Below, in pieces: positions 17,097-34,152 of a stretch of 40,297 nt of DNA. Position numbers and translations under genes: made by a program. The stretch comes from a bacterium. Its GTDB lineage: Bacteria > Fidelibacterota > UBA2242. A model generated the notes under the pieces. It was not told the DNA's origin. It did not search any database and saw only the letters and a list, made by a program, of their open reading frames with translations. Position 1 is the stretch's first letter. Every line of letters starts with the position of its first letter. The stretch lies in the NCBI GenBank assembly GCA_018824205.1, contig JAHJGX010000244.1, positions 1-40,297 of the forward strand, given 5' to 3'.

Positions 17097-17990
17097 TCAG
17101 GAACTCATTTCAAGAATGTATTTGTGCAAAGTCGGGATCGTTTCGGTGTGATTTCCCCGAATGTCAAAACCCTGACCGCCGAGCACCTTCGGCCACTCCA
17201 CGATTCGGGTGCGGGAGCGGTACATATCCAGAAAGTCAAAATTGGCGGTTGTGAAGTTTTTAACGTCGAAATCCATATTTCGCACCATGGTAATGGCTTT
17301 CAGAAACACTTCCGGTAAATTAACCGCTGAACCCACATTAAGCAATACGCCGTCAGTTAGTCTGGATACGGTTTTGATCATGTGTTGAAAATCGATAAAG
17401 GATGTTTTTCCCAGCGCCGCACCGTCACAGCTGGGATGTTGGTGGATAATATCACCACCAATGGCAATATGAACTGTGCCGGGAATGTTCTGGATCATGG
17501 CATTGTAGAGGATGTTCAGACTTTTATGGGGAAAGTCGAGTTCCGCTACTTTGCGTGCTACCGACAAACCATAACCTTCGTTTTTTTCATAGCCCGTGTT
17601 CAGGGCAGCGTTCATATAAGTCAGGGTTTCCGTGGCCATTCCAAAGGTCCCGTCTTTCAGGCCGTTTTGTACATCTTCCGAGGTTTCCCCGATCATGGCA
17701 ATTTCAAAATCGTGAATTGACGCGCCGCCATTCATGGCAATATGATCGATAAATCCGCGGCGGATCAGGTCGATTAATATGGCCGAACAGCCAAGCTTTA
17801 CCACGGCGCCGCCCATCATCAGCATGACCTTCGCGTCTTTTTCCTTGGCCTCGACAATCAGACGGGCCAGCTGACGGATGTCATCATTTTGCAGGTCAAT
17901 GCCGGAAACCAGGGGAATCATGTCGTTTGTGGAGAATTTATTTTTACGCTCGCTGATCGGATAGGTTTTGATTTTATTTAAGTCAATCAT
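17097..17990 (-). CDS. Deoxyhypusine-synthase-like (DHS NAD-binding fold) protein, divergent
   Basis: 297 aa; 'AKVMLMMGGAVVKLGCSAILIDLIRRGFIDHIAMNGGASIHDFEIAMIG' and 'LLNVGSAVNLPEVFLKAITMVRN'; resembles a conserved uncharacterised family; weak similarity by eye to the DHS-like protein at 33067-34098. Confidence 0.6.
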   Translation of the reverse strand: MIDLNKIKTYPISERKNKFSTNDMIPLVSGIDLQNDDIRQLARLIVEAKEKDAKVMLMMGGAVVKLGCSAILIDLIRRGFIDHIAMNGGASIHDFEIAMIGETSEDVQNGLKDGTFGMATETLTYMNAALNTGYEKNEGYGLSVARKVAELDFPHKSLNILYNAMIQNIPGTVHIAIGGDIIHQHPSCDGAALGKTSFIDFQHMIKTVSRLTDGVLLNVGSAVNLPEVFLKAITMVRNMDFDVKNFTTANFDFLDMYRSRTRIVEWPKVLGGQGFDIRGNHTETIPTLHKYILEMSS

Positions 17991-31626: not shown

Positions 31627-31782
31627 ACAGATCGAATTTACCATCTGAAAAACAGCGAATTATTTTGTTTGGATTTGATTGAAAATAACTGTATTATTGC
31701 TCGTTTTTTTGACCAGTTTTAATCATCGGATTATGAATTGGTACGGCGTCGTCGGAAACTAATATAGGGGGATTTATGCGAT

Positions 31783-32184
31783 ATGGAAAAAGAGATCAAG
31801 GCTTATGGCCCACACTTAATGCTGGATTTGAATGACTGCAATCCGGAGATTCTTGACAATCTGGATGCCTGTTATTATCTTCTGAATGAATTACCTGCAA
31901 TGATTGGAATGACTAAAATAACCCGCCCATATGTTTTTCGATACGAGGGATCGACCCTTGATGATGACGGGATTACCGGCGTGGTGATCATTGCGGAAAG
32001 CCACATCTCACTGCATACCTATCCAAAGAAAAATTTTGTGTTTGTTGATCTGTTTTCATGCAAAGATTTTGATGTTGAAAAAGCGAAACAACACGTGATT
32101 GATTATTTTCAGTCTAAATCGCCGAAAATCCATCTGCAAATCCGCGGAGAAGAGTTTCCCGACGCCGGAAACGCCAGCAACTGA
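31783..32184 (+). CDS. speD: SpeD-type pyruvoyl-dependent decarboxylase (AdoMetDC family)
   Basis: 133 aa; 'GVVIIAESHISLHTYPKKNFVFVDLFSC' with the ESH self-cleavage site. Confidence 0.9.
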   Translation: MEKEIKAYGPHLMLDLNDCNPEILDNLDACYYLLNELPAMIGMTKITRPYVFRYEGSTLDDDGITGVVIIAESHISLHTYPKKNFVFVDLFSCKDFDVEKAKQHVIDYFQSKSPKIHLQIRGEEFPDAGNASN

Positions 32185-32185
32185 T

Positions 32186-33064
32186 ATGACCAATAAAAAA
32201 CAAAACCATTATCCCGGTGCCTTCGGTAACTTGGAACAGCCTTATTGTTCTTATAATTCCGCAAGGATTGCCGTTTTGCCGATTCCCTATGATGGGACCT
32301 CCACCTGGATCAAGGGCGCAGACAGGGGGCCGGCGGCGCTCCTGGAAGCCTCCGGAAATATGGAGCTGTATGATATTGAGACGGACAGTGAAGTATATCT
32401 TCAGGGGATCGTAACCCTGGAACCGCTGAATTGTCCCGATGACCCGCAGAAAATGAGCGAACAGGTTTTTTTGGCCGCCCAGAAAATCTTAAACGATAAT
32501 AAATTTCTGGTTGGCCTAGGCGGCGAACATTCCGTCAGTGGCGGTTTGGTTAAGGCGGTGGTTGAAAAATTTGAAAATGTTTCAGTGCTGCAACTGGATG
32601 CCCATTCCGATCTCCGGGATGAGTATGAAGGCAGCCCCTACAACCACGCCTGTGTGATGGCCCGGATTAAAGAGCTGTGTCCTATCGTTCAGGTGGGTAT
32701 TCACAGCATGGATGTTTCAGAAAAGAAAAACCTGAACCCGGATCGGGTATTGTTTGCCCATGAATGGTTTGATCATTCTGACCCGCTTGAATGGATCAAC
32801 TCCAGATTAACCGATAATGTATACCTTACAATAGATCTGGATGTCTTTGACCCGGCGATCATGCCGTCTACCGGCACACCGGAACCCGGCGGACTATGGT
32901 GGTATGATGTCATGAAAATAATAAACGGGGTTATCGCAGAAAAAAACGTGATCGGACTGGATGTGGTAGAACTCTGCCCCGATCCATCCAACAAAGCGCC
33001 GGATTTTATGGCGGCAAAACTCGTTTATCGTACCCTGAGTATGATATTCCAAAAGGAGAAATAA
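32186..33064 (+). CDS. speB: Agmatinase-family ureohydrolase
   Basis: 'LGGEHSVSGG', 'LQLDAHSDLRDEYEGSPYNHACVMARI', 'LTIDLDVFDPAIMPSTGTPEPGG' (Mn ligands). ATG 32186 sits 1 bp after speD. Confidence 0.92.
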   Translation: MTNKKQNHYPGAFGNLEQPYCSYNSARIAVLPIPYDGTSTWIKGADRGPAALLEASGNMELYDIETDSEVYLQGIVTLEPLNCPDDPQKMSEQVFLAAQKILNDNKFLVGLGGEHSVSGGLVKAVVEKFENVSVLQLDAHSDLRDEYEGSPYNHACVMARIKELCPIVQVGIHSMDVSEKKNLNPDRVLFAHEWFDHSDPLEWINSRLTDNVYLTIDLDVFDPAIMPSTGTPEPGGLWWYDVMKIINGVIAEKNVIGLDVVELCPDPSNKAPDFMAAKLVYRTLSMIFQKEK

Positions 33065-33066
33065 GC

Positions 33067-34098
33067 ATGAAAAAACATGATTTTCTTAACAAGGAAATTC
33101 AGCATATCGATATTAAATCCTTTGATGCCAGACCGATTATCGACAGTTACCGAGATATGGCATTTCAGGCCCGGAACCTGGCGACGGCAACGGATATTTA
33201 CAGCCGCATGTTGAAAGATAAAGACTGCAGCGTAATTCTGACTCTGGCCGGGTCGCTCTTCAGCGCCGGACTGAAAAATGTGGTGGCGGATATGATTGAG
33301 CATAATATGGTTGACGCTATTGTGTCCACCGGTGCGGTTATTGTCGACCAGGATTTTCTGGAAGCGCTAGGCTACAAGCATTATATCGGAACACCTTTTG
33401 TCGATGATGCCGAATTAAGAGAGCTGATGATCGACCGGATTTATGATACATATATTGATGAGGAAGAACTGCGGGTCTGTGATATGACGGTTGCTGAAAT
33501 TGCTGACGGGCTGGAGCCGCGGCCCTATTCATCCCGTGAATTCATTTTTGAAATGGGACGCTACCTGGATAAGGTCGGCATTAAAACCGAGAAATCGGTG
33601 ATCTATTCGGCGTATAAAAAAGACGTGCCGATTTTTGTACCGGCTTTTTCCGACTGTTCGGCAGGCTTTGGTCTGATTCACCATCAATGGCATAATAAGG
33701 AAAAATATCTGAGCATCGATTCCGCCCGGGATTTCCTGGAGCTGACCCAGATTAAACTCGAATGCGCCGAGACCGGTATCCTGATGATCGGCGGCGGTGT
33801 ACCAAAGAATTTCACCCAGGATATTGTGGTGGCCACAGAGGTACTGGAAGAAGACCGGCCGATGCACAAGTATGCGATCCAGCTGACGGTAGCCGATGAA
33901 CGTGATGGCGCGTTGTCGGGATCGACCCTGAAGGAAGCGAGTTCCTGGGGCAAGGTTGACACTACTTATGAGCAGATGGTCTTTGGTGAAGCGACGGTGA
34001 CCATGCCGCTGCTGGTGAGCGACGCCTACCATCGGGGTTACTGGAAAGAGCGGCAGCCAGCGAATTTCCAGAAATTGTTTAAAAATAATCACGAATAA
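33067..34098 (+). CDS. speY: Deoxyhypusine-synthase-family protein (probable homospermidine-type biosynthesis enzyme)
   Basis: 343 aa; 'VPIFVPAFSDCSAGFGL', 'GILMIGGGVPKNFTQD' (active-site Lys context), 'SGSTLKEASSWGKV', 'VTMPLLVSDAYHRGYW'. Confidence 0.88.
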   Translation: MKKHDFLNKEIQHIDIKSFDARPIIDSYRDMAFQARNLATATDIYSRMLKDKDCSVILTLAGSLFSAGLKNVVADMIEHNMVDAIVSTGAVIVDQDFLEALGYKHYIGTPFVDDAELRELMIDRIYDTYIDEEELRVCDMTVAEIADGLEPRPYSSREFIFEMGRYLDKVGIKTEKSVIYSAYKKDVPIFVPAFSDCSAGFGLIHHQWHNKEKYLSIDSARDFLELTQIKLECAETGILMIGGGVPKNFTQDIVVATEVLEEDRPMHKYAIQLTVADERDGALSGSTLKEASSWGKVDTTYEQMVFGEATVTMPLLVSDAYHRGYWKERQPANFQKLFKNNHE

Positions 34099-34122
34099 TT
34101 AATTCATTTATGCTATAGTCTG

Positions 34123-34152
34123 GTTGCACTGCTCTGCGGTGCGACTTTTTTT
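34123..34152 (+). terminator. Rho-independent terminator of the polyamine operon
   Basis: GTTGCAC-TGCTCTGCG-GTGCGAC + TTTTTTT (one G-U pair). Confidence 0.75.

Follow-up and report, generated by a model that had tools for sequence, protein, structure and literature searches.

An operon of three genes in a member of Candidatus Neomarinimicrobiota (genome G000; 3.89 Mb, 94% complete) very probably encodes the conversion of arginine to homospermidine, and on sequence grounds the likely intermediates are agmatine and then caldomycin. The operon lies in a window of 40,297 nucleotides, the whole stretch of DNA analysed here (assembly GCA_018824205.1, contig JAHJGX010000244.1), and would constitute a self-contained route needing neither AdoMet nor PLP. 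Its features are as follows:

31627 to 31782, plus strand: leader/promoter region with a GGGGGA Shine-Dalgarno sequence and an out-of-frame ATG at 31776, aligned with relatives
31783 to 32184, plus strand: speD homologue, 133 aa, predicted SpeDA-type pyruvoyl L-arginine decarboxylase (PF02675, 93 bits)
32186 to 33064, plus strand: speB homologue, 292 aa, agmatinase-family ureohydrolase (TIGR01230, 231 bits; PF00491)
33067 to 34098, plus strand: DHS-like gene, encoding protein P0003 (PF01916, 332 bits; NF002699, 584 bits)
34122 to 34146, plus strand: strong intrinsic terminator with an 11-bp stem and T-tract (-16.2 kcal/mol, z = -3.3)

The genes follow one another at 1 to 2 bp, speD ending at 32184 before the speB ATG at 32186 (1-bp gap) and speB ending at 33064 before the ATG of the DHS-like gene at 33067 (2-bp gap). 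An earlier sequence-only reading of this DNA had described these ORFs, strands and coordinates correctly, together with the terminator that closes the operon, the lack of a spermidine synthase gene (speE) among its members and the retention of GGGVPK in the DHS-like protein (residues 242-247; catalytic lysine, K296). That reading had also proposed a pathway from arginine via agmatine and putrescine to homospermidine, with a SpeD neofunctionalised to an arginine decarboxylase. The proposal is not new, since the same cluster and its SpeDA have been published; a speD-speB-speY cluster was described earlier in Ca. Marinimicrobia (Li et al. 2023, PMC10407285), and further clusters of these genes were named in other phyla (PMC10407285). 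The purified Marinimicrobia SpeD (PIS27863, 131 aa) decarboxylated arginine with a kcat/Km of 770 but not ornithine or lysine, is without AdoMet decarboxylase function and failed to bring back spermidine when expressed in an E. coli strain mutated in speD (PMC10407285). Judged from its description, the cluster of Ca. Marinimicrobia CG08_8_20_14_0_20_45_22 resembles the window operon in phylum, in its three gene families, in having no SpeE and in SpeD length (131 versus 133 aa); the SpeD of one relative of G000 (G014) has exactly 131 aa and is 67% identical to the window SpeD. The third gene of the CG08_8_20_14_0_20_45_22 cluster was called speY (putrescine to homospermidine), with no assay reported, whereas the third gene in the window is CdmS-like by sequence. 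Of the sequence-only proposal, an arginine-decarboxylating SpeD, a SpeB ureohydrolase, homospermidine as the product and the lack of SpeE are supported, while the proposed order of steps does not fit a CdmS-like P0003.

The window SpeD belongs to the class 1b SpeD family, combining PF02675 with a conserved processing serine (Ser73, in E72-S73), catalytic His78 and Cys93, which correspond to S63, H68 and C83 of T. maritima. Two AdoMetDCs from the PDB and the SpeE-linked SpeDs of genomes G018, G020 and G043 all have F49, P51, W70, E72 and G84 and a short loop. All five of these AdoMetDC-type positions are replaced in the window SpeD, which together with 12 close DHS-linked relatives carries Y, D/E, Y/F, K/M/Q/R (E once) and K there, as well as a 5-residue insertion in the loop preceding them. 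A SpeD tree separates the window type from the AdoMetDC type with support of 100/99, in a small sample with long branches. The more divergent SpeD of locus L025, also found beside speB and a DHS gene, groups with the AdoMetDCs and could represent an independent case. With its substrate-side residues changed and no SpeE linkage, the window SpeD falls outside the bona fide AdoMetDCs, and like a SpeDA it has no SpeE partner in its genome.

The third protein is not of the SpeY type and, by its sequence, belongs with caldomycin synthase (CdmS). On the CdmS equivalog NF002699 (cut-off 500), P0003 reaches 584 bits and the one Thermus orthologue tested 549 bits, whereas the homospermidine/SpeY-type model NF001980 (cut-off 450) gives P0003 only 201 bits. 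A true DHS role was rejected (236 versus 304 bits for TIGR00321; 307 versus 434 for NF002006). Identity to the Thermus orthologues, which come from Deinococcota genomes of 2.0-2.4 Mb assigned to Thermus on the strength of genome size, phylum and residue numbering, is 62-64% by search and about 61% over the alignment with the one compared. The same equivalog, identity of about 61% and all seven CdmS residues link P0003 to the T. thermophilus system of CdmS (TTHA1570) and TtSpeBap. These residues (S67, E136, D143, F204, L286, E293 and K299 of CdmS) occur in the Thermus orthologues at a constant offset of 5 (5/5 checked) and in P0003 as S63, E132, D139, F201, L283, E290 and K296; being common to 107 of the 123 aligned sequences, they say more about family membership than about substrate and are weakly diagnostic. 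In a tree of 54 sequences, P0003 and the Thermus proteins share one large group, from which an alphaproteobacterial/Bacteroidota group is separate. A residue test for agmatine versus putrescine was tried and abandoned: the position of Leu283 is Cys in one sub-clade, but this sub-clade mixes members linked to PLP decarboxylases with members linked to SpeA/SpeB. The closest named relative of the DHS-like gene is from Neomarinimicrobiota UBA9312 (88% identity).

The CdmS of T. thermophilus couples two agmatines in vitro but accepts neither putrescine nor spermidine (Kobayashi et al. 2024, PMC10981699), and a ureohydrolase then turns its product into homospermidine (PMC10981699); our literature search for caldomycin found nothing besides this study. 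Gene content alone does not reveal the order of steps, but as P0003 groups with an enzyme that uses agmatine and not putrescine, the ureohydrolase of the window operon probably acts last, a finishing role like that in T. thermophilus. By analogy with the assayed family member, SpeD would cleave itself at Glu72-Ser73 to generate a pyruvoyl group and decarboxylate L-arginine to agmatine; the CdmS-like P0003 would join two agmatines into caldomycin; and the SpeB-family ureohydrolase would remove both guanidino groups as urea to leave sym-homospermidine, so that free putrescine would not be needed as an intermediate. SpeB exceeds the agmatinase model (TIGR01230, 231 bits; cut-off 174), a score that cannot separate agmatine from caldomycin as its substrate; the enzyme is predicted to act on caldomycin, removing its two guanidino groups, and/or on agmatine, removing its single one. 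The two systems differ in their agmatine supply, which is via TtspeA in T. thermophilus and would be via a SpeD-derived arginine decarboxylase here, and in their layout, as the window has three genes in one operon whereas neither SpeD nor SpeB was detected beside cdmS in the Thermus loci examined.

A genome-wide profile search indicates that G000 encodes a single AdoMet_dc (SpeD). Searching for speE and speA, a check put forward with the sequence-only reading, returned no stand-alone SpeE in this 94% complete genome and no SpeA above cut-off; normal-type SpeE is likewise missing from the family genomes examined, and SpeA was below cut-off in all 16 genomes examined across the genus, family and order. 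The sole PF01564 match in G000 lies inside a 736-aa membrane protein and scores far under the SpeE models. The search of G000 also turned up no PLP-dependent arginine or ornithine decarboxylase; PF01276 is below its cut-off there (passed by only one order-level genome among the 16) and the sole PF02784 match is LysA (388 bits), which argues for the absence of SpeA, AR-fold ODC and CASDC. G000 does encode a second, unlinked PvlArgDC-family protein (C25:60671-61204, locus L151; 212 bits), around which no polyamine genes were recognised, so that SpeD is not strictly required for agmatine supply. PvlArgDC is patchy in the family, being present in G000, G001, G004 and G007, and a rule that SpeDA genomes lack any other arginine decarboxylase therefore fails when applied strictly. 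No PvlArgDC turned up in three relatives with a window-type speD (G003, G005 and G008; 70-94% complete), so this protein is an unlikely general source of agmatine.

The order speD-speB-DHS is also found in the relatives G001, G003, G005, G007, G010, G011, G014 and G031 and, outside the phylum, in a Desulfobacteraceae MAG (L022), a deltaproteobacterium (L043) and a Sericytochromatia MAG (L063). Recurrence in other Neomarinimicrobiota and in unrelated phyla indicates that the arrangement is not due to chance, and the operon looks like one that moves as a unit. Depending on lineage, speB and the DHS gene are accompanied by SpeD or, in other phyla, by the unrelated arginine decarboxylases SpeA (L047) or PvlArgDC (L056), and the constant product of this slot would be agmatine; 60 of the 80 loci have no recognised partner nearby, so this slot-swapping pattern rests on few cases. 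SpeE was never found beside a CdmS-family DHS gene in the 80 loci. Other CdmS-family relatives neighbour PLP decarboxylases (L021, L089, L099 and L101) or, at L078, have aguB and aguA downstream, a setting that fits putrescine coupling better and suggests that substrate use may differ within the family. As such relatives may use putrescine (PMC8594446), the CdmS family name may be over-extended. In three cyanobacterial loci (L019, L020 and L082, two of them on plasmids) the CdmS-family gene adjoins a gene annotated as rocD (ornithine--oxo-acid transaminase), and neither speB nor an arginine decarboxylase was detected near it. A different layout, speD-pvlADC-speE-speB, holds a SpeE-linked SpeD in both G018 and G043; the G018 cluster shares the SpeD and SpeB families with the window operon but differs in the AdoMetDC type of its SpeD, its stand-alone pyruvoyl arginine decarboxylase and its lack of a DHS gene.

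Window-type SpeDs are also found in phages. Microcystis phage MaAM05 (L170, 2486-5264) encodes an AdoMetDC-type SpeD, a window-type SpeD, SpeE and SpeB (agmatinase) consecutively, and its second SpeD may be a phage-borne SpeDA within a full spermidine pathway; V. chlorellavorus has the same gene set, and its SpeD2 is a proven arginine decarboxylase (PMC10407285). An uncultured 735-kb phage (LR756501; L169, 3013-3384) has a lone window-type SpeD of 52% identity, and no polyamine genes were recognised next to it in the stretch examined. The DHS gene was absent from all phage records examined.

The published annotation of the third gene as speY (PMC10407285) implies a different order, in which SpeDA makes agmatine, SpeB converts it to putrescine and the DHS-like protein joins two putrescines into homospermidine. 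This order is in keeping with the SpeB score above the agmatinase cut-off and with the aguA/aguB- or PLP-decarboxylase-linked relatives of P0003, which hint at putrescine use somewhere in the family. We nevertheless regard it as unlikely given the scores of P0003 on the SpeY-type and CdmS models, its identity to the Thermus orthologues, where CdmS shares only 27-33% identity with the enzymes it was compared with, SpeY-type ones among them (PMC10981699), and the failure of purified CdmS to use putrescine. That SpeD instead makes putrescine directly, as an ornithine decarboxylase (SpeDC), is highly improbable. SpeDCs are a second neofunctionalised branch, some of them beside hss (PMC10407285), with four diagnostic residues (Gln, Thr, Phe and Tyr), but the genomes from which most were picked have no route from agmatine to putrescine, whereas the window speD is followed after 1 bp by an agmatinase-family gene, and the assayed Marinimicrobia homologue rejects ornithine.

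The sequence-only reading had offered dcAdoMet plus agmatine chemistry as its alternative, which is disfavoured by the failure to find a stand-alone aminopropyltransferase. In this scheme SpeD would be a true AdoMet decarboxylase, with dcAdoMet serving to aminopropylate a substrate such as agmatine via an unrecognised transferase. The window SpeD just reaches the TIGR03330 AdoMetDC cut-off (75.7 versus 75.65 bits), retains the processing residues and, although Pro51 is lost, keeps Pro71, which may be the marker proline published for AdoMetDCs; the 736-aa membrane protein has a SpeE-like domain, and agmatine could come from the unlinked PvlArgDC. However, large SpeE-like membrane proteins are also present in family genomes without speD, the substrate-loop residues are unlike those of every SpeE-linked SpeD examined, and the Marinimicrobia SpeD from a cluster of the same gene order made agmatine without restoring spermidine. 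The dcAdoMet/aminopropylagmatine route was rejected because neither the genome nor the family yielded a normal SpeE, and we consider AdoMet decarboxylation by this SpeD very unlikely.

Upstream of the operon, the out-of-frame ATG stands 7 nt before the speD start, a position at which an ATG occurs in 12 of 13 window-type speD genes from three phyla (it is absent from L063), against a baseline of 6 in 577 ORFs. The four bases between this ATG and that of speD vary among loci, and shared ancestry may explain part of the conservation. The upstream ATG would open a 19-aa frame (31776-31835, plus strand) overlapping speD. Further upstream (31660-31720, plus strand), relatives have in common a stretch resembling GTATAATAGCGCGCTTTTTT, a candidate promoter for the operon; no Rfam elements were found in the window. 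Elsewhere in the window (17097-17990, minus strand), a gene encodes a GSU2086-family protein (NF052581, 365 bits) that weakly and in part resembles DHS and nickel-pincer-dependent ornithine cyclodeaminase.

Earlier work has described both the cluster and its SpeD-derived arginine decarboxylase, and the useful part of the present analysis is that it links the literatures on SpeDA clusters and on caldomycin synthase. This link predicts that the third enzyme condenses agmatine, bypassing putrescine, and that caldomycin would be a transient metabolite outside Thermus; if true, it would correct the annotation of this pathway in many uncultured phyla. More tentatively, we suggest that the 'speDA-speB-speY' clusters, at least those of Neomarinimicrobiota and Desulfobacterota, might represent a transferable, one-operon caldomycin route free of putrescine, AdoMet and PLP, the order of which would be wrong as published, and that the conserved ATG at -7 may control translation of its first step.
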